Below are positions 30,734-41,770 of a stretch of 64,000 bases of DNA, one piece after another. The position numbers and the translations under genes are program-made. The notes beneath the pieces are model-generated. The model saw nothing but the letters and a program-made list of their open reading frames with translations, searched no databases and was not told the origin of the DNA. The DNA is from Spirochaetales bacterium. Its GTDB lineage: Bacteria; Spirochaetota; Spirochaetia; SZUA-6; RPPD01. The DNA lies in assembly GCA_016929065.1 (NCBI GenBank), contig JAFGJO010000055.1:64401-128400 (forward strand). Reading direction: 5' to 3'. Each line of letters begins with the position of its first letter. Position 1 is the first letter of the stretch.

Positions 30734-31264
30734 ATGAAGCGTCTATTGTTATCATTAATTGTTTTATTTGCTTTTGGCGGATTTCTTTTTGCGCAGGATA
30801 CAGCGTCTCATGAGGTGCAATTGACTGTCGCTGAGGTATGTCTTATCGATCTCAATGATCCTGCACTAATCACTCTGGAAACAACAATACCGGCCAACGG
30901 CGGTGAAGATCCGGCAGGCGAAAGCAATACTGACAAATATCTGCAGTACACATCGCTTGTTCCGTCAGGACAAACCAGGGCAATCTCGATTGCCTGGGAT
31001 GTTGCTGATTCCGCTCCGGCGGGGACCGCGCTTCTTCTGGAAGCAATCGCTGTTCCTGCAAACTGCGGCACCGCGGCAGGTCAAATCACCGTGTCCAGTT
31101 CCGGGCAGAATCTAATCACAGGAATCGGCAGCTGTGCGACCGGCACGGGTGCAACCACCGGTGCACAGCTCCAGTATGACCTGTCGATTACCGATGTCAC
31201 CCAGCTGAATGTCGGCGATACCAGCACAGTGACAATTTATTTCACTCTGACGACAGCATCGTAA
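30734..31264 (+). CDS. Secreted subunit-like protein (candidate fibre or surface-layer component)
   Basis: The protein has 176 residues with a signal peptide ending near FLFAQ. The mature part is Thr/Ser/Ala-rich beta-sandwich sequence with a Cys in VAEVCLID, a further Cys in NCGTAAG, and the block LITGIGSCATGTG followed by QLQYDLSITD. I recall similar GIGSC-type secreted proteins in Bacteroidetes gene clusters beside chaperone-like and usher-like proteins; that recall is not proof. Strong GGAGG before the ATG and a terminator directly after the gene suggest it is the most highly expressed product of the cluster. Confidence 0.6.
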   Translation: MKRLLLSLIVLFAFGGFLFAQDTASHEVQLTVAEVCLIDLNDPALITLETTIPANGGEDPAGESNTDKYLQYTSLVPSGQTRAISIAWDVADSAPAGTALLLEAIAVPANCGTAAGQITVSSSGQNLITGIGSCATGTGATTGAQLQYDLSITDVTQLNVGDTSTVTIYFTLTTAS

Positions 31265-31274
31265 CCCCCTTTAC

Positions 31275-31309
31275 CAAAGAGGAGGGCAGCAATGTCCTCC
31301 TCTTTTTTT
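31275..31309 (+). terminator. Terminator or attenuator between the two small secreted-subunit genes
   Basis: Stem AGAGGAGG/CCTCCTCT (31278-31285 with 31296-31303), extendable by flanking A/T pairs and with a 10-nt loop, is followed by seven T. The downstream gene starts at 31347 with its own GGAGG, so partial read-through would give a large first-gene excess. Confidence 0.8.
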
Positions 31310-31346
31310 CACTCTGCCGGTGGACAGGGTGCAGCGGAGGCAACAC

Positions 31347-31844
31347 ATGAAGCGTGTTTTTTCATTCATCAGACATTCCCTGATTGTACTTCTTGTGTTT
31401 TGTGTGGTATCTTCTGCATTTTCTGCGCCGAAAATATCCATAAAGGTGCAGATCGCGGGCGGCGGATGGACTGTTGATCTTGATGAGACAAATCTTTCCG
31501 GTGGCGCGGGATCAGATTTTGTCTCGCCGATAGAAAGTGCAAGCGATCTGATTGATGTGGACGTGACCAAACCGGCGAACGGCTGGCAGGTGTCCATTAT
31601 GCGGACCGATAGTGTCTGGAATTCAAACATCAGAATATATGCGCGACGGACAACTGACGGGAGCGGGACGGGAACAATTGCCGACGGGACTACGTATCAG
31701 GAGATTACCACGAGTGACTGGTATTTTTTTTCCGGCACGCTGGATAGATCCGGTTTGAAAATACAGCTTTCTCTGGACGTCGACGCCTCAATTGGTGTGG
31801 ATAATTTTTCTACTACATTATATTACACGGCGACCGAAATTTAG
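31347..31844 (+). CDS. Second small secreted subunit-like protein
   Basis: The protein has 165 residues with a signal peptide ending near AFSA. The mature part is beta-rich (ISIKVQIAGGGWTVDL, QLSLDVDASI, LYYTATEI) and has no Cys after the signal region. Role inferred from its place between the major subunit-like gene and the chaperone-like gene: a minor or tip subunit. ATG 31347 has GGAGG 7 bases upstream. Confidence 0.55.
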   Translation: MKRVFSFIRHSLIVLLVFCVVSSAFSAPKISIKVQIAGGGWTVDLDETNLSGGAGSDFVSPIESASDLIDVDVTKPANGWQVSIMRTDSVWNSNIRIYARRTTDGSGTGTIADGTTYQEITTSDWYFFSGTLDRSGLKIQLSLDVDASIGVDNFSTTLYYTATEI

Positions 31845-31857
31845 ACAGGAGACACAA

Positions 31858-32670
31858 ATGAAGGACCGTTCTGCCTTTTTACTGACATTTGCTTTTTTTC
31901 TGCTTGCTCCTGTCCTGCTTAATGCGAATATTATTGTAAAAAACGGGCTTACCCATGAAAATGAGGCCGCATCCGGGGAGTACTATGAGGGATCGCTTGA
32001 ACTCCAGAACGATGCCGACATCCCCCAGGAAGTAAAAATTTATCAGGCAGATTATTTTTTCTATGCTGACGGGAGAATTCTCTATACCGATCCGGGGAAG
32101 CTTGAGCGCTCAAATGCGCACTGGATAACCTTTTCCCCGAAACGTCTGACCATCCCGCCGAAAGAGGAGATTTCGGTCCGTTTTTCGGTAAAGGTTCCCG
32201 CAGACAAGATGCTTTCCGGCAGTTACTGGAGTGTTTTTATGGTTGAGGGAATCCCCGATGAGAGTCCTGAATCCACAAAATTCAAACCGCAAGAGTCGGG
32301 GCTTGGCGTACGGCAGGTCTTTCGCTATGCCATCCAGATTGTCACTCAAATTGGCGCTGTCGGGAAAAAATCCGTTCAGTTTCAGGAAACAAAACTGCTC
32401 AAGCAGGGTGTGGAGCAGTTTTTGCGTCTTGATATCAAGAACAATGGTAAATGGTGGCTGCGGGCAACAGTTTGGGCTGAACTTTATGACCAAAACGGAA
32501 ATTTTGTCGGGAAATACGAGGCGGCGCCGCTAAGGCTGTACCCCGAGACATCGGGCCGGTTTGCCATTCCCCTCAGTGATGTTCCCAATAACACTTACAA
32601 AGCCCTGATTATCGTCGACTGCGGCGGTGAGGATATTTATGGAGCGAACCTGAATCTGATAATTAAATGA
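31858..32670 (+). CDS. Periplasmic Ig-fold chaperone candidate
   Basis: The protein has 270 residues with a signal peptide ending near LLNA. The mature protein reads as two Ig/fibronectin-like beta-domains: domain 1 with [32 protein letters not shown] and [15 protein letters not shown]; domain 2 with [23 protein letters not shown]. The layout (two Ig-like domains, no C-terminal membrane anchor, beside subunit-like genes and an usher-like barrel) recalls PapD/FimC-type chaperones, but the classical PapD signature is not evident. AGGAG precedes ATG 31858. Its TGA overlaps the ATG of the next gene (ATGA). Confidence 0.6.
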
Positions 32671-35600
32671 AACAGTTTTTTTTTGTCTGCTGCTTTTCAT
32701 CATCTCGTATTCTGCCTGGACTCAGGACAGCGGAATCTTTCTATCCCGAAAAGGGCCTCCGGTCGTGGAAGTCAGGTCACGCGCAAATGTCTCGACAGCT
32801 TTTTTTATTACAAACCGACGGTCATGGTCCCGTTCTTTTGAGCAGCAACTTCTGCTTCCTGAGGGATGGAAAATTGTCAGTCCCCTGTTTCAGCTGACCG
32901 TCCCTCCCGGATCATCAGAGCTTTTTATTACTCATTTTCTTGTACCGGAAGGAGCGGCTGCGGGAGATTACCCGGTTGTCTATAAAGTTGCCGATACAAA
33001 TAATGCTGCGCTGGCAGAAACATTGTCCTTTGTTGTACGGGTACTTCCCTTTCCAAAACTGGAAATAAAGGTATTAAAAATTCCGGATTATGTTGTCGGC
33101 GGGGATTCCTATAGTATCGAGTATGTGGTGCAGAATACGGGGAATACAGCACTTGACAGCTTCTTTTTTGTTAAAAATACCGGGAATTACAATGTCGCGT
33201 TTGTTTCGCCGGAGTTTCCTTCGAGCGGGCATCAACTGATGCTGGCTCCTGGCGAACAAGTGACACTTGTTATTACAATTAAAACGACGGCGGGTATCCG
33301 ACGAACCTTTAATCACAGTGTGACGCTGTATGCGGAATGCCGTCTGCCCGGGGGCGGGGAGGTGGTAACCGGCACCAGAGAGGTCAGCAGGGTGGAATTA
33401 ATTCCGTTAATTACACAGGAGAGTTCCATCATGCACACGATTCCGCTCCAGCTGTCTGTCAAAGGTCTGGTCGATTATCTGGATGATACCTGGGTGGCAG
33501 GCAGTGAGGCCGAGATACGGGCTAAGGGAACCCTGGACGAAAACAAGGCGCATGCGGTCGAGCTTTTTCTGAAGAAGCGGATAGATAACGGCAATGACCT
33601 GCTCTTTCATCAGAACGACCGATACAGTGCGGAGTATACCTCGTCATTACTCAATATTAAGGCGGGAGATCACGGCTGGGAACTCTCCCCGCTGCTCGAT
33701 AGCTACCGTTTTGCGCGGGGCATCGGGGGATCGGTATTCCTGAATCCGGTTTATTTCGGGGGGTATTATTATCAGGATATCTGGTCGTTCGACGCCCGTC
33801 AGAACATAGCAGGATATATTGATTATCTGTTCGAAAACAAAGCGTACCCCCGCGGATACAACTACCGGGTCGGGTTGAATGTGATGAGCCCGTTCCAGGA
33901 CAATGTTCTCTTCAGTCTTGAACAGGAATTCCTGCCGCTTACAAATATCCGGCTTCTGCTTGATCTGGGCGGTGAAACAGAAAGCGACGGCTCCTTTTCC
34001 AAAGCCGGATTTTTTGAGGGGACAGGAGACCACGGCTGGCTCCAGTACCGGCTTACCGGGATTTATGCTGATCCTGATTTTGACGGGTATTATCGGGACC
34101 GGTATCAGGTTTCCGGCAACGCGACTGCGAGGTTTCTTGAAGAACGATTGACACTAAGTGCCCGGCTATCACTTGTTGAAAACAATCTTCTCAACGATAC
34201 GGAACGGTCGACTGCTCAGCGAAAGTTCACCGCACAACTCGGAGGGAGATATCTTTTTACGGATATAAAGATGAATCTCCAGGGAACGTACCAGTTTGTG
34301 AATACGTTCGACAAATTTCCCGCTCATGAATATGATACGTTCGAAAACAGTCTGCGGCTGATTGCCCGGTTTCCGATTGATATTTTTTCATTCTCGCTGA
34401 TTACCTTTTTTGCAGTCAAATATGATATCGCCGATTATTCTTCAACTTTTTATCATAAATATCATGCGGATGTGGATTTTCCCCTTTTCGCGACGATGAA
34501 CCTGCATCTGCTGGCATATTATGACGGGACGGTTGAGGCGGAAGACGACATCAGCCACCGCTTCGGATTCGGCGCAGGTGCCCATATCAGCCTTGACCGG
34601 TTTCGTATTAATGCTGACATAAAGAACAGTTATCTGTTTGTTACCCAGGAATACCGCTGGATTTCGCTGGATTTCGCTGCGGGGCTGACATATACCTTGC
34701 CAAACCGGCACAGTATTTCGAGCTCGCTGTCTTACGTGATGGTAAACTCCATTCAGGGCTTTTACCATACCTTCTCGTTCTGGCTCAAATATACCGCTCC
34801 TTTGGACATACCTGTCAGCCCCAAAGATACCGCAGTCATTGTGAAGGGCCGAATTTATGACGAGTCGACCGGGCAGGGACGGCCCGGTGTCATTCTCCGT
34901 GTTAACGGCGCCGCGACGATGACCGATATGAACGGCAATTATGCGTTTTATCTTGCCAGTGCGGGTCAGTATTATCTTCACATCGACCGGTCCCGTCTGG
35001 GTGAGTCCATGATACCCAACAAACAGATGCCGGTGCTGATTAATTCGGTGAAGGGGACTGTCTATGTAGAAGATTTCGGGCTTATCCGGGCGGCCTCCGT
35101 TACAGGACATGCTGCTGTCTATGAACCGGTTACCAAAGGAACCATCGCTCTGCAGGAAAAAGACGGGACCGGTCTTGCCTATAAGCGTACAGCCGGTCTC
35201 CCCAATCAGCTGCTTGAGATATCGGATGGAAAGGATGTCCAGCGGCTGCTGACGGATGTGAATGGTGATTTCAAATTTGAGGAAGTGCGTCCGGGGAAAT
35301 GGACCCTGAAAGTACTCGGCGGTAAAATCCCGCAATATTATCATTTTGAGGTTGATGAGTATGAATTTATTGTAACGCCGGGCGAGACAGAGGAATTTAT
35401 CTTCCGGGTGGTCCCGGATAAGCGGGAGATAAGATTTGTGGAAACTACAGAGACAGTAACACTTGATCCGGCCACTCCGACGCTCGATACGTTCGGTGAG
35501 ATTACCATACAGACTGAAGAAATTACGGATAAACCTCCCCGGCCGACACCAACGCCAACGCCAACGCCGACACCAACACCAACGCCAACACCAACACCAA

Positions 35601-35809
35601 CACCAACACCAACACCAACACCGACACCAACACCAACACCAACACCAACACCGACACCGACACCGACACCAACGCCAACGCCAACGCCAACGCCAACGCC
35701 AACGCCAACGCCAACGCCAACGCCAACGCCAACGCCAACACCAACACCAACCCCCAAACCAACACCGGCGCCGCTGCCGACACCGCGGCCAACACCCCGG
35801 CCATATTAA
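32667..35809 (+). CDS. Usher-like outer-membrane barrel protein, out of frame with its own signal peptide by one base
   Basis: Translation from ATG 32667, which overlaps the upstream stop, yields a signal peptide only if one base is added to (or two removed from) the run of nine T at 32676-32684; then [20 protein letters not shown] runs on into the 1014-residue frame. As sequenced, ATG 32667 ends after 76 residues at 32897, while the long frame opens at GTG 32765 without a signal. The protein has NEW3/CARDB-like Ig domains (about the first 200 residues), a large beta-barrel region with [18 protein letters not shown], two transthyretin/carboxypeptidase-regulatory-like domains ([31 protein letters not shown]), and a terminal Thr-Pro repeat. 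Read as the exporter of the neighbouring subunits, by analogy with ushers. Confidence 0.75.
32676..32684 (+). repeat. T9 homopolymer in the usher-like signal peptide
   Basis: Nine consecutive T lie seven bases after the ATG (bases 10-18 of the coding region). Ten T (or seven) would join the signal peptide to the main frame; nine T puts them out of frame. Such tracts change length by slippage during replication or transcription. Confidence 0.9.
35545..35751 (+). repeat. Hexanucleotide repeat encoding about 34 Thr-Pro dipeptides
   Basis: A run of 6-bp units (CCAACG, CCAACA, CCGACA variants) encodes alternating Pro and Thr, ending in mixed Lys-Pro, Arg-Pro and Ala-Pro units to the stop. The array sits at the C-terminus of the usher-like protein, is probably extended and exposed, and is prone to copy-number change. 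Thr-Pro-rich linkers are classic O-mannosylation substrates of bacterial PMT enzymes. Confidence 0.9.
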
Positions 35810-35889: not shown

Positions 35890-37044
35890 ATGAACGGTAA
35901 GGCAGGCAGTCTGCTCTTTATCTGCACAATTTTATTGCTGTTTCCACTCTATGCGCAGGAAAATCTGGTTAATAACAACAGTTTTGAAAGAGATGACGTA
36001 TTGGGAAATTTAACCTGGTGGGAGACTGATTCTTTTATTCAGAATAGCAGTTCTGCACTTATTGTACCGGTTGAGGGGATCAGCCGTACCGGAAAACGCT
36101 CACTCTTGGTCCTCAACTATATTCCAAATGATTCGCGGGCTGTGCAATGGGTTCGGGTACAGCCGAACACTGTATACAGGTTTTCTGCATGGGTTTATAT
36201 AGAAGAATCCGGTCCGCAGGGAAAGGGAGCCAATATTTCTGTTTATGGTTCTATTTTCCCTTCAGATGACTCTGCCCCGGCAAAAAAAGAGTGGCAAAAG
36301 ATAGAGCTTGTCGGAAAAACCGGTGGGGATCAAACGGAACTTCCGGTAAATGTCCGGCTGGGTTTTTTTGGAAGGCTGTCCACCGGGAAGGTATATTTTG
36401 ATGACGTGGAAATGATAAAGCTTGATGCAATGCCGGCAGGAAAAGTGATTGATCTCTCTCAAAACGAGGGGACCGGTGTGGTGAGCTATAAAGAGAAGAA
36501 AGATGAAAAACAGGGATTTTTCGAAAATGTAAATATCCTGCTGGTCATCGTAACCGGCGCACTTGGATTTATTGTCCTGCTCCTCGTTCTTCAGCTTTTT
36601 GGTGTTTTTGGAAAAATTGTAAAAGCAGTGTCCGGCGATAAAAAGTCGTTGCCAAAAAAAGAACCGGTCACTGTCGATCAGAAGGCGGCCCTTGATAAAA
36701 TAGAACGGCGAAGGACACCGCGAAAAAAGATAAAACTGGATATCGTTCTTTCCAGGAAGATGCCCGGCGGCGGGTATGAGATTCTTGAACTTCAGACCAT
36801 TGATTTGTCTGAAACCGGAACCCTGGTGAAATCAGAGGATCTGGGTGCATTGAAAATAGACGACAAGGTCTCCTGTGAAATAGAGTACAAAAAACGACGT
36901 TTTGATGTCGGCGAGGCAAAAGTAGTGCGGAAAGAAGAGATTTACGACAAAAAAGGGAAACTCAAAAAAAGCGGATTCGGGCTGGTGTTTGTCTCTGAAG
37001 CACAACCGTTTTTAAAGAACCGGAAAATGCTGATGAAGGAATAA
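35890..37044 (+). CDS. Membrane protein with extracytoplasmic carbohydrate-binding-like domain and cytoplasmic PilZ domain
   Basis: The protein has 384 residues. A signal-anchor is followed by a galactose-binding-fold domain (about 25-185) whose later part reads WQKIELVGKTG, QTELPVNVRLG, STGKVYFDD; the same domain occurs in the double-GT-C protein encoded at 38018. A transmembrane helix (about 215-240) leads to a cytoplasmic PilZ domain with RRTPRKK (RxxxR) and DLSETGT (DxSxxG). It could relay c-di-GMP state to, or sense binding at, the surface. AGGAGG before ATG 35890 fixes the start. It is last in the plus-strand cluster and meets the convergent glycosyltransferase operon. Confidence 0.8.
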   Translation: MNGKAGSLLFICTILLLFPLYAQENLVNNNSFERDDVLGNLTWWETDSFIQNSSSALIVPVEGISRTGKRSLLVLNYIPNDSRAVQWVRVQPNTVYRFSAWVYIEESGPQGKGANISVYGSIFPSDDSAPAKKEWQKIELVGKTGGDQTELPVNVRLGFFGRLSTGKVYFDDVEMIKLDAMPAGKVIDLSQNEGTGVVSYKEKKDEKQGFFENVNILLVIVTGALGFIVLLLVLQLFGVFGKIVKAVSGDKKSLPKKEPVTVDQKAALDKIERRRTPRKKIKLDIVLSRKMPGGGYEILELQTIDLSETGTLVKSEDLGALKIDDKVSCEIEYKKRRFDVGEAKVVRKEEIYDKKGKLKKSGFGLVFVSEAQPFLKNRKMLMKE

Positions 37045-37045
37045 A

Positions 37046-38008
37046 TTACTTTCCCCTCTTTTTTTGTTTTTTACCGGGCTGCTGTATGGAGTCAATAATA
37101 TACAGCGGCCTTTTTTTTACCTCTTCAAAAATACGCCCGATGTACTCTCCCATGATTCCCAGTAAAAGATAGGAAATACCGTTTAAAATAATCAGCAGGG
37201 CGATCGTCGATGTCCATCCGGGGACAGTATCGGTGGTGAAAAAAAACTGGTAGAGTGCATAACCCAGGTAGACGAGCCCGCCGAAAAAAGTGACCAGCCC
37301 AATCATGGAAGCGAGCTTCAGGGGTTTTGGGGAAAATGAGGTGAGCGCGTTTACAGCGAGCCTGACACGCTGAAAAAAACCATAGGTGCTTTTTCCGGCT
37401 GCCCGTTTTTTACGGACATAGGAAACCTCTTTTTGACGGAATCCCGTCCAGGCGACCAGGCCCCGGATATACTTGTGGTACTCACCCATCGAGGAAAGCA
37501 CGTCACAGACTTTACGGTCGATAAGCCGAAAATCACCGGTATCACGGGGAATTTTTACTGCTGAAAAGGTGCCCAGCAGCCGGTAAAAAATCTTTGCAAA
37601 AAACTGCAGCAGAAAAAACTCGCCCTTTCGTTTTTTTCGTTTTGTATAGACCACCTCAAACCCCTGTTTCCAGGAAGCAAAGAGTTCGGGGATCACCTCG
37701 GGCGGGTCCTGGCAATCAGAATCAATAATCACAACTGCATCCCCTTTTGCATTGGCCATTCCTGCCGAAATCGCGGCCTGATGTCCGAAATTCCGTGAAA
37801 ATTTGATGATTACTATTGCAGGATCTTTTTTGGCAAAATCGGTGAGAATTTCAACTGAATTGTCCCTGCTTCCGTCATCAATAAAAACCAGTTCGTAGCT
37901 TGTTTTTATTGAGCGCAGCGCAGCGCTCGTGCGCTGATAAAATTCCGGAAGGACCTTGTGTTCATTGAACACCGGGATTACTACAGAAAGTGTCGGATTT
38001 GATGCCAT
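37046..38008 (-). CDS. DPM1/GtrB-like polyprenyl-phosphate sugar synthase
   Basis: The protein has 320 residues. The catalytic N-terminal part carries VSVVIPVFNE-type start, FIDDGSRDNS, DSDCQDPPE and RDTGDFRLIDR; two C-terminal transmembrane helices (near 230-255 and 268-290) follow, as in GtrB/DPMS subtype. It makes undecaprenyl-phosphate-linked mannose or glucose, the lipid donor for GT-C enzymes. It lies 9 bases after the double-GT-C gene in the same operon, so it should supply that enzyme's donor. Confidence 0.88.
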   Translation of the reverse strand: MASNPTLSVVIPVFNEHKVLPEFYQRTSAALRSIKTSYELVFIDDGSRDNSVEILTDFAKKDPAIVIIKFSRNFGHQAAISAGMANAKGDAVVIIDSDCQDPPEVIPELFASWKQGFEVVYTKRKKRKGEFFLLQFFAKIFYRLLGTFSAVKIPRDTGDFRLIDRKVCDVLSSMGEYHKYIRGLVAWTGFRQKEVSYVRKKRAAGKSTYGFFQRVRLAVNALTSFSPKPLKLASMIGLVTFFGGLVYLGYALYQFFFTTDTVPGWTSTIALLIILNGISYLLLGIMGEYIGRIFEEVKKRPLYIIDSIQQPGKKQKKRGK

Positions 38009-38017
38009 CCTATCTCC

Positions 38018-41000
38018 TTACGCGTGAAATATCCATGAAGGAAGCCACTTGAGGGCAATATCCACAAAATCTTTTGCGATGGGGATGCCGGTTAATACCG
38101 GATAAAACAATACAAACAGGATACCGCAGAGTATACAAAAAATATACCCCGCATACCGGAACTCCCGTTTCAACTTTACCAGATGCTGTACAGAATAAAC
38201 AAGTGCGAAGATTATAAACGGGACAGCCGGAAAAAAATGATAAATAAATGTGAGATCCCGCGGAATAATAATCCACGGCAGGTACGTAAGGAGAAACGAG
38301 ATAATGATAAACATTCCCGCCTTTTCCCTCTTGAGGATTGCGAACATTGCCGCTGATATAATTGCAAGTGTTCCCATCCACCATACAAGCGGATTTCCCA
38401 TTGACACGATACTCGAAATAAATCCATGTGGTATGTTTTCTGTTCCCTGATACAGCCAGATCGGTTTTTCCACCAGCGGCCATGACCACCATTTTGAGGA
38501 GAACTCATGCTCTGTTTTCAGATTTTTATGATAGGCGTACATATTCTCCTGCTCACGCACAAATTCACGGAAGATATTTTTTTCCCTGTTGCGGTATAAT
38601 GACGGGGTCGAAGAGATGAGATATATCGAAGCTGGAACGATCAAGGCGCAGAGCAGGAATATTTTGCCGGTCCGCCAGAGAAAGAGAAGAGGCGTTCCCC
38701 GGGTTTTTCCCTTGTTGGATGAAATAGAGTACTTCAAAAACTGAATGACGGTAAATATGAATAATATAAAAAATCCAGGAGCGAGATACATTCCGGTCCA
38801 TTTCACCGAGACCGCCAGTCCGAAAAATATTCCGGCGGTCAAAAGCGGGAAGAAAGGGAGTGTGTCTTCCTGCTTTGAAAAAAGCAGTTTTGTATAGCGG
38901 AAAAGAAAGTATGCCGAGATCGTCATGAACAGTACGAGGAAGATGTCGACGGTGGCCATTCTTGACTGGACAAAATGCATGAAATCAACGGCCATAAGAA
39001 ATACTGCGGCAAGCGCGGGCAGTTTCCGGCGAAACAATGCAATGCCGAATGTGTACATGACCGGAAGCAGAATAATTCCTGCAAGAACACCCATAATCCG
39101 CCACCCGAACGGATTCATGCCGAAAAGCATGATTCCCAGAGAGATAATGAGTTTGCCCAGCGGTGGATGAGTCGTTTCGGTCGGCTGGTCATTCTCAATG
39201 TATTCATATGCGGTTCTTGCAAAATACACTTCATCAAAGTACATGCCGTTAAGCCAGGATGCTGGTAGTTGTGCGCTCGTTTGTTCATCGAATACGGCTG
39301 AAAATACAGTGGAAGATCCGGAAACAGGATCAACTTCCCGGCAGGATGCAATAGGGAGGACGGTGCCTCCAGCGTTTTTGGCTGCGGCTTCGAAAAGACG
39401 AAGTCCCGGCCGGCTGGTGGTAATCCGCATATATTTTGCAGTGACAGACACGGGAATGACCCGCCACTCAATATATCGGTAAGGGGTATCCTGGCTTATG
39501 GTGACTGGTGATTCCCATGTTGTCCTGTCTCTGGAAAAATCAATGGAATAGCCGCCGATGCCGTACCCGGTATAGAGACGCAGCTGCGAGATTGGTTCAG
39601 GCCGGTCAAATTCCGCGATTCCCTGTTCGCCTGTGTGCAGCGGGTTCCAGTAAGTTTGGGGCGTATTTGTTAATCCAAGGCCATACAATGAAATCAGTCC
39701 ATAGAGTATTGTGACGATGATGATTGCACGGTGGTTTTTCAAAAAAGGCATGATTTTTCTGATCTTTTGAAATCGGGGCAAACCGGGGGCAAACAGGTTT
39801 ATTGGGATCTTTCTTATTTCAACAATCCGTTTTTTTAAAAGAATGTCGTACAGTGTTTTTAATGAAAATAAAAACAGGCCACAATTCACCGCGGAAAGGC
39901 TCACCAGAAAAAAATCATTGCCGGGAATATGGTAGCTGCCGGTCTGATTGACCAAATAATAGACCACTGCCTGGTTAATAAACAGGGTAGCGGAAAATCC
40001 CCCATACAGATACAAAAGCCGCCTGTCTTTGCACAGAATAAATCCAAGCAGCAAAAATACAAGAGCGGGAAACAGATACCGTTCGTGCATTTTTGATCCA
40101 AACAGGAAGGTCGCAGAAAAGAGAAAAAATACCAGGAGTATTTTACGTGCGCCGTGATGTGAACGGAAGAAAATAATTCCGGAGATTCCTGTTATGATGA
40201 AAAGCCAGATGAAATTCCATGCAAAAACCGGAAACAGCAGGGATGTGGAATCCGGTGAAAAATTCAATCCAAGCAAGGAATAAAGGTTTGCAGCATTCAG
40301 GCTTGCAAACGGGTATTGCGCCAGAGATTCACCGTACAATGAGATAATCCAGAACGGGGATTGTTTAAAGGAAAAAGGAAGTATTATCAGTACAGCCGCA
40401 GCAAGGGAAACGATGACCGAAATGGCGATCTTTTTCCACGAATGCGACCGGATGAATGTAAAAAGGATGACTGGTGCGCAAACCAGTGCCGAAATTTTTG
40501 TCAGCACTGCAAACGTAAAAAACAGTCCGGTGAGTAAAAGTCTTTTATTGCCGGCAGAGAGAATTGCAATAACGATAAACAGGGTAAAAACCGTATCCAC
40601 CTGGCCCCAGACAGATGAATTAAACAGTATGGCTGGATTCAAAAAATACAGGAAAGACAAAAGGAGCGCCCATCCGTGATGTATTCTTTTTTTCCCCCAT
40701 TTAAAAATGACCAATGCGGTGACCAGGTCGGCAAAAATGGCAGGCAGTTTTATCAGAATATAATACAGCGGACTTTGAAATGACAGGCCAAACAGATTCC
40801 GTATGCCGCCGACAATCCACAGTATGTACAGATACAGCGGAGGATAATCGGTAAATTGCGAATCAGTATATACGTGTGAAAACCCCTTGGTGAACGCGGT
40901 CTCGGACCAGCCGGAAAAACACGCGAAGTCATTGGGAAAACCGAAAGATCCCGCGGCAAGCAGTATTCTGACAATAAAGACACCGGCAAATCCGGCGGCC

Positions 41001-41770
41001 AGCATACCGGTCAATTTCAAGGATGCAAGCTCCTGAAACCTGTTTTTTTCCAGAACAAACCTCAGGAATATTTTTATCAGCACAACAAACAATATGCCAA
41101 CACATAAAATAAAGAACAGAGCAGGAATGTCCACGCTGAAGGGTGTGGTTACCGAGGCATGTTCTGTTTGTGAGGGATCAAAATTCACAAAGGATGTCTG
41201 CGTCAAAGCAGCTCCCGGCGGTAGCTCTCGAATAGAAATATCGTCAAACCATGCTCTGCCGGCGGAGAGATTACCATAGCTGCCGATCCCGACTGCAACG
41301 GGCAGCTCTGTCTGTCCGGAACCGGTTTTGCCGGCAAGTAATATTTTTGTCCATGAATTTGGTCCTGCAGACAAATCCCGGGATCGCGCAAGTGTTCCGG
41401 GAATACTGATGCATACAGACGGCTTTTTGTTTTGGCTTGATGTATCTGATGTCTTTACCCAGCAGGATATCTCATACAGAGTGTCGGGTTTTACCGAAAC
41501 ATATTGAACCAGGCGAATGTCATTGGGGACGGTTGTTTCGATACGCACTGATGAGGTTCCGCTATGAGCCACAGCTGAATCGGATACATGGACAAAACCG
41601 CTTTCCTTGAATGCAGAAATGTTCCAGAGAAGGGGTTTTTCGGCCTGATGTTTTTCAAACCCGCTGTTGGCAATTGTTGTTTGCGAAAAACCTCCCTGAA
41701 TCGAAAACAGCATAACGCAGCAGATAAAACATGTGGAAAAAACAGGCGCGAGGTTTATTTTTATCAGCAT
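38018..41770 (-). CDS. Double GT-C glycosyltransferase with carbohydrate-binding domains (PMT-like C-terminal half)
   Basis: The protein has 1250 residues. Order: signal peptide (1-30); galactose-binding-like domain (31-190) homologous to that of the nearby PilZ protein; first membrane GT-C module (about 250-650) with DYPPLYLYIL; short linker; a second F5/8-type-like beta domain (about 710-830); then a PMT-type module (about 840-1250) with DEVYFARTA and THPPLGKLI. The PMT half would transfer a sugar from polyprenyl phosphate to Ser/Thr of exported proteins. The first half may add a second sugar or modify a glycan. Fusion of two GT-C modules is unusual. Confidence 0.82.
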   Translation of the reverse strand: MLIKINLAPVFSTCFICCVMLFSIQGGFSQTTIANSGFEKHQAEKPLLWNISAFKESGFVHVSDSAVAHSGTSSVRIETTVPNDIRLVQYVSVKPDTLYEISCWVKTSDTSSQNKKPSVCISIPGTLARSRDLSAGPNSWTKILLAGKTGSGQTELPVAVGIGSYGNLSAGRAWFDDISIRELPPGAALTQTSFVNFDPSQTEHASVTTPFSVDIPALFFILCVGILFVVLIKIFLRFVLEKNRFQELASLKLTGMLAAGFAGVFIVRILLAAGSFGFPNDFACFSGWSETAFTKGFSHVYTDSQFTDYPPLYLYILWIVGGIRNLFGLSFQSPLYYILIKLPAIFADLVTALVIFKWGKKRIHHGWALLLSFLYFLNPAILFNSSVWGQVDTVFTLFIVIAILSAGNKRLLLTGLFFTFAVLTKISALVCAPVILFTFIRSHSWKKIAISVIVSLAAAVLIILPFSFKQSPFWIISLYGESLAQYPFASLNAANLYSLLGLNFSPDSTSLLFPVFAWNFIWLFIITGISGIIFFRSHHGARKILLVFFLFSATFLFGSKMHERYLFPALVFLLLGFILCKDRRLLYLYGGFSATLFINQAVVYYLVNQTGSYHIPGNDFFLVSLSAVNCGLFLFSLKTLYDILLKKRIVEIRKIPINLFAPGLPRFQKIRKIMPFLKNHRAIIIVTILYGLISLYGLGLTNTPQTYWNPLHTGEQGIAEFDRPEPISQLRLYTGYGIGGYSIDFSRDRTTWESPVTISQDTPYRYIEWRVIPVSVTAKYMRITTSRPGLRLFEAAAKNAGGTVLPIASCREVDPVSGSSTVFSAVFDEQTSAQLPASWLNGMYFDEVYFARTAYEYIENDQPTETTHPPLGKLIISLGIMLFGMNPFGWRIMGVLAGIILLPVMYTFGIALFRRKLPALAAVFLMAVDFMHFVQSRMATVDIFLVLFMTISAYFLFRYTKLLFSKQEDTLPFFPLLTAGIFFGLAVSVKWTGMYLAPGFFILFIFTVIQFLKYSISSNKGKTRGTPLLFLWRTGKIFLLCALIVPASIYLISSTPSLYRNREKNIFREFVREQENMYAYHKNLKTEHEFSSKWWSWPLVEKPIWLYQGTENIPHGFISSIVSMGNPLVWWMGTLAIISAAMFAILKREKAGMFIIISFLLTYLPWIIIPRDLTFIYHFFPAVPFIIFALVYSVQHLVKLKREFRYAGYIFCILCGILFVLFYPVLTGIPIAKDFVDIALKWLPSWIFHA

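Follow-up and report, generated by a model that had tools for sequence, protein, structure and literature searches.

The window analysed here, a stretch of 64,000 nucleotides corresponding to bases 64401-128400 of contig 9 in a draft genome of 3.5 Mb and 69 contigs, contains two convergent genes, P0001 on the plus strand and P0002 on the minus strand, with a third gene (P0003) between them that is just downstream of P0002 and codirectional with it. P0001 (35890..37044, +) has an open reading frame extending from 35833, although translation more probably begins at M20 (35890); the initial annotation had already placed the gene from that position, and the convergent P0002 likewise where we find it. 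The encoded membrane protein consists of a signal peptide, a domain resembling carbohydrate-binding modules (CBMs) of the CBM4/9 type at residues 42-200 (35956..36432, +), a transmembrane (TM) helix placed by hydropathy at about residues 232-258 (36526..36606, +), a Lys-rich and presumably cytoplasmic linker, and a PilZ domain at residues 291-387 (36703..36993, +). The PilZ domain scores 29.3 bits against a Pfam cut-off of 22.5 and has both c-di-GMP motifs, RxxxR (as RRTPR) and [DN]xSxxG (as DLSETG, of the form DxSxxG). On the strength of the domain and its motifs, P0001 is predicted to bind c-di-GMP and to be a receptor of the c-di-GMP type.

P0002 (38018..41770, -) encodes a double GT-C glycosyltransferase of 1250 amino acids, an arrangement also found in relatives, in which the C-terminal half resembles protein O-mannosyltransferases (PMT). 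Its own CBM4/9-like domain follows a signal peptide at residues 30-186 (41213..41683, -), and a TM helix at about residues 206-242 (41045..41155, -), apparent from hydropathy, aligns with that of P0001 in BLASTP. The first GT-C half occupies about residues 248-638 (39857..41029, -) and is 30-40% identical to its counterparts in relatives, which match PMT_2 or GT87. Between the halves is an insert (39281..39664, -) in the position of the discoidin-like (F5/8 type C) domain of 900-residue relatives; F5_F8_type_C is matched by the relatives L090 and L092, while our Pfam search found no match to it in P0002 itself. The PMT half, residues 866-1246 (38033..39175, -), matches PMT (PF02366) at 75 bits and PMT_4TMC (PF16192) at 78 bits, exceeding the cut-offs of 22.7 and 32.4 for these GT39 protein O-mannosyltransferase domains; PMT_2 is matched as well. 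Because the score against NCBIfam Pmt (NF058602) is 72.5 bits and the equivalog cut-off is 800, we class P0002 as PMT-like and not as a Pmt equivalog. P0003 (37046..38008, -), a GT2 protein with a C-terminal TM pair (Pfam GT2, E 1e-32), resembles polyprenyl-phosphate-sugar synthases of the PgfS/ArnC/GtrB type; at 276 bits it does not reach the PgfS (NF047588) equivalog cut-off of 500 and is to be read as a related GT2 only. Comparison with PHROGs gave nothing useful. From the order of signal peptides and TM helices, the CBM-like domain is predicted to be periplasmic in both P0001 and P0002, on the same side of the membrane as the GT-C active site.

The two domains are homologous. Full-length P0001 and P0002 align by BLASTP at 110 bits (E 4e-30) over residues 26-256 and 12-238, respectively, and this similarity runs through the signal peptide, domain, linker and first TM helix, and therefore the entire anchored module is common to both proteins. 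Compared alone (P0001 42-200, P0002 30-186), the domains are 37% identical at 91 bits, with an E of about 1e-25 genome-wide. Their local alignment score of 252 is well above the level of random alignment, with 2000 shuffles having a mean of 30, a standard deviation of 5 and a maximum of 54. The motifs on which the initial annotation based its claim of a shared domain, VPND, GKTG with QTELPV, and S.G...FDD, occur in the same order in both genes and align in register (PND in the first case). Whole-genome searches, including a profile search, found no third copy in the organism's own genome; P0001 and P0002 are the only two proteins that carry the domain.

The domain matches its nearest Pfam family at scores near or below the cut-off. 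Against PF02018 (CBM_4_9), with its cut-off of 25.9, the Pfam search gave 25.5 bits for P0001 (E 1.9e-5) and 17.4 bits for P0002, and the genome search gave 27.6 and 22.2 bits; the relatives L090 and L092 score 36.8 and 33.1 bits. AlphaFold2 (AF2) models of the two domains, built on an alignment of just the two window sequences and hence of moderate confidence (pLDDT 61 and 63), are alike and nearly all beta, and the best Foldseek matches of both include CBM4-2, CBM16 and CBM22, with E about 1e-5 and TM about 0.5. At that confidence, both domains are predicted to be CBM4/CBM16-like jelly rolls. When a profile of eight relatives was compared with the PDB, CBM-bearing arabinogalactanases and CBM16 chains were found. 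A PDB sequence search with the single domain returned a chance match only.

A single-domain query found few matches in a sample of the phylum. With a profile (A3), 18 of 395 genomes of the class proved to carry the domain; the matches in the five with the lowest scores (E 1e-8 to 1e-5) resemble ordinary CBM_4_9 proteins. We collected 51 distinct domain copies, mostly from one family (f62) of the same order, at 6-9 copies per genome; the domain is a lineage-specific module, and the relationship of P0001 and P0002 is real, non-random and wider than could be seen from the window alone. GT-C/PMT enzymes carry 30 of the copies, short anchored proteins 11 and PilZ proteins 10. Five architectures can be distinguished: domain, TM helix and PilZ (366-413 residues); domain, TM helix and a single GT-C unit (670-850 residues), matching PMT_2 or GT87 where matched; domain, TM helix, discoidin-like domain and PMT (about 900 residues); the double GT-C form (1230-1330 residues); and domain and TM helix with only a short tail (260-320 residues). 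Several of the short stand-alone copies adjoin GT-C genes (L112, L114, L133 and L124), which is the arrangement expected of a split form of the fusion, and genes for PgfS-like GT2 and GtrA-like proteins adjoin many GT-C genes in the relatives. Among 26 genomes of the order, the domain occurs in all eight that have PMT_4TMC and in 1 of the 18 others. This recurrence on many GT-C glycosyltransferases is consistent with a glycan-related role for the domain.

A search of genome contigs with P0002 found mostly Bathyarchaeota enzymes, whose alignment covers residues 236-1248 but not the N-terminal domain. The double GT-C proteins of Bathyarchaeota (L024-L035) alignable over this range hint at a transfer between archaea and the lineage described here.

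The ten PilZ copies are monophyletic in a tree of all 51 domains, with support of 100/96 and recovery in all 200 bootstrap trees; therefore the PilZ fusion arose once, before the split of these genera. The domain of the window's PilZ protein pairs with a copy from the genome G002 (100/97), to which its identity is highest at 46-47%, and not with the domain of the window's PMT. With the exception of that in G508, every full-length PilZ copy retains the RxxxR and DxSxxG motifs. Adjacency of a PilZ gene to a PMT gene was seen only in the window; elsewhere among the loci read, PilZ copies lie away from glycosyltransferases.

To the other side of P0001 lies an operon of exported proteins that ends with the PilZ gene. 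It begins with two small exported proteins, at 30734..31264 (+) and 31320..31844 (+; the ATG at 31347 is the likelier start), both with orthologues in relatives, in the same operon for the first. Next is an exported protein resembling Ig/fn3-like chaperones (31792..32670, +; translation more probably starts near 31861 than from the TTG at 31792), kept in 6 of the 26 genomes of the order. The last is a large exported protein with CarboxypepD_reg-like domains (32667..35809, +; predicted open reading frame from 32765), which from its sequence would form a barrel. This barrel-like protein ends in a Thr-Pro repeat tail (35537..35806, +), and four orthologues have a Pro/Thr/Ser-rich tail. MtPMT prefers Pro-rich Ser/Thr targets (PMC12331936), and a threonine-rich region in Cnm is a proposed target of the Pgf system (PMC5856776). 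The tail resembles both, and on composition we would guess it to be a candidate O-glycosylation substrate.

The PilZ gene lies with this operon in four genomes, namely that of the window, G002 (L038), G412 (L103) and G490 (L104). Across the 26 genomes of the order, five have both a PilZ copy and the chaperone-like gene, 19 have neither, and one each has the PilZ copy or the chaperone-like gene alone (Fisher 5e-4, uncorrected for kinship). In G502 the two are on separate contigs. The exceptions are both drafts: in G468 the operon is present but no PilZ copy is, and the PilZ copy of G508 is accompanied by neither the operon, a PMT nor any other copy of the domain.

Our preferred explanation, to which we would assign a probability of about 0.5, is that an acceptor-glycan module of periplasmic glycosylation enzymes has also come to serve a c-di-GMP receptor as its periplasmic head. 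The unit would be a membrane-anchored periplasmic module comprising the signal peptide, the CBM4/9-like jelly roll, the juxtamembrane linker and one TM helix. On PMT and other GT-C enzymes, by analogy with EmbC and GT136 (discussed below), the module most likely keeps the acceptor, a glycan or a glycoprotein, close to the active site. Joined once in this lineage to a cytoplasmic PilZ domain, it would most likely recognise a related ligand in the periplasm, for instance a glycosylated tail or subunit from the surface system encoded alongside, and the PilZ protein may thus couple cytoplasmic c-di-GMP to the assembly or retention of that system, with the signal passing in either direction. The GT-C enzymes and the c-di-GMP sensor would then probably be linked via their common domain. 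Several observations weigh against this explanation: model confidence is moderate, no cleft could be mapped, one genome (G508) has a PilZ copy alone, another (G468) has the operon without it, and the adjacency of PilZ and glycosyltransferase genes is confined to the window. We have also considered a stronger version, in which a module not described before would tie an enlarged set of periplasmic GT-C enzymes for protein glycosylation to c-di-GMP signalling. The PilZ receptor would read the glycosylation of the surface system with a lectin-like domain that it has in common with the glycosylating enzymes, such that c-di-GMP and protein glycosylation would jointly license surface display; we regard this as a rather doubtful extension.

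The main rival to the acceptor-module reading is that the domain, rather than being a lectin, mediates contact between proteins or their positioning, like pairing with like, with the PilZ protein docking through it on GT-C enzymes (or the enzymes dimerising) and c-di-GMP switching glycosylation on or off. It is attractive in that the homologous unit includes the linker and TM helix, and in that stand-alone anchored copies adjoin GT-C genes, the placement expected of a separate subunit. However, PilZ copies are usually not beside glycosyltransferases, the PilZ copy of G508 has no partner of this kind, and both the fold and the neighbouring families are those of carbohydrate binders, and we consider this arrangement unlikely, if a little less so than the alternatives that follow.

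The initial annotation went further than our preferred reading, in proposing that both proteins bind the same cell-surface glycan. We compared residues in the 10 PilZ, 30 glycosyltransferase (GT) and 11 short copies against an outgroup, small and only approximately aligned, of nine unrelated CBM_4_9 domains. E52, W63, G87, Y115, S118, W154 and D190 are general CBM_4_9 residues. D100, by comparison, has a frequency of 0.90 in PilZ, 0.93 in GT and 0.73 in short copies versus 0.11 in the unrelated domains, and R/K102 has frequencies of 1.00, 0.93 and 0.82 versus 0; Q105, G132-A133-N134, T163, R175 and G177 are also enriched in the family and common to the PilZ and GT arms. Of the motifs singled out at the outset, VPND and QTELPV do carry family-specific residues, but FDD is largely a general CBM_4_9 feature, with D190 present in 8 of 9 unrelated domains. 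The residues common to both arms and rare or absent in unrelated CBM_4_9 domains (D100, R/K102, Q105, G132-A133-N134, T163 and R175), polar ones among them, support a common site, although not an identical ligand. The PilZ copies have invariants of their own, P98, W106, G139, F178 and L182, among which W106 and F178 suggest a differing specificity, and they form a separate and old clade. Within CBM4/9-type domains, 37% identity is a low basis for predicting one ligand. Thus, the claim that a receptor of the c-di-GMP type and a GT-C enzyme have a homologous extracytoplasmic CBM-like domain stands, whereas the PilZ-only invariants and the old separate clade speak against assuming one ligand, and strict identity of the glycan now appears improbable. 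A recent local duplication between neighbours, without functional consequence, might be imagined from the convergent adjacency of the genes and the presence of only two copies in the genome, but it retains hardly any probability and is ruled out by the 51-domain tree, in which the domain of the window's PilZ protein falls among PilZ copies from other genera and families.

Each half of the acceptor-module reading has precedents. A CBM on mycobacterial EmbC binds the acceptor (PMC3044687), and a CBM on the GT136 enzyme ORF12 of Citrobacter is involved in substrate binding (PMC11127046). Like these, the enzymes described here are polytopic GT-C proteins with an extracytoplasmic beta-sandwich CBM; unlike them, the CBM4/9-like domain is N-terminal, has its own signal peptide and TM helix, and is found on PMT/GT87-like enzymes, on PilZ proteins and alone. 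LapD exerts inside-out signalling and controls a surface protein (PMC3032545). P0001 shares with LapD, Alg44 and BcsA/BcsB a cytoplasmic c-di-GMP site, a TM segment and a periplasmic domain encoded near a surface-structure operon. It differs from LapD in having PilZ in place of EAL/GGDEF, and further distinctions are its CBM4/9-like periplasmic part, its single pass (N-out/C-in) and an operon that encodes neither a polysaccharide synthase nor a protease partner. GT-C enzymes with CBMs and receptors of c-di-GMP that have a periplasmic part were already known separately; in the open-access papers searched we found none that joins the two through one homologous domain, and nothing on mannosyltransferases in spirochaetes. 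Some 50 natural variants, spread over three kinds of output of which the stand-alone form is one, offer a handle on the ligand and on whether c-di-GMP signalling reads protein glycosylation. The PilZ protein is also a candidate for the receptor of a surface operon not described before.

The pairing of P0002 and P0003 is similar to MtPMT O-mannosylation and to the Pgf system of Streptococcus mutans, where a PMT-type enzyme works with a polyprenyl-sugar synthase (PgfS being the nearest NCBIfam family to P0003) and Thr/Pro-rich surface proteins are likely targets; the double GT-C polypeptide, the extra N-terminal domain and the score of P0003 below the PgfS cut-off set it apart. There is also some correspondence with the three-component Gtr systems (GtrB-GtrA-GT-C), as relatives have a GT2 synthase and a GtrA-like protein beside GT-C genes, but we noticed no GtrA-like gene next to the window's PMT, and the acceptor here is probably protein rather than O-antigen. 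A second PMT-like locus in the same genome (L158:3932-7559, G000 contig 51) has a GtrA-like gene, a 516-residue GT-C protein without the CBM-like domain and a GT2 protein 42% identical to P0003.

The operon adjoining P0001 recalls chaperone-usher pili in combining small exported subunits, a chaperone-like protein and a large outer-membrane-like protein. It differs in its CarboxypepD_reg-like domains and Thr/Pro tail, and we rejected a chaperone-usher identity, as the usher, PapD-like chaperone and pilin Pfam families had no match in the operon, the window or the relatives. A profile of the chaperone-like protein likewise had no sequence match in the PDB. The operon (30734-35809), together with its relatives at L038, L103, L104, L159 and L160, is possibly an undescribed surface-assembly system.

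Two further features of these operons were observed. In the window (32667-32765), the signal peptide of the barrel-like protein spans a run of nine T, and the ATG at 32667 is out of frame with the body. In G002 (L038:5452-5622) a run of 11 T likewise leaves the ATG and the barrel-like body in different frames; a run of about 10 T at L103:10558-10700 is in frame, and L104 has no T run. The poly-T run suggests phase variation or transcriptional slippage, or else draft errors. Also, a gene with a similar N-terminus, for a putative regulator of the cNMP-binding type, recurs in three genomes (L103:5679-6524, L106:8392-9228 and L160:12533-13378), in two of them close to the PilZ gene and in the third adjoining the barrel-like gene.
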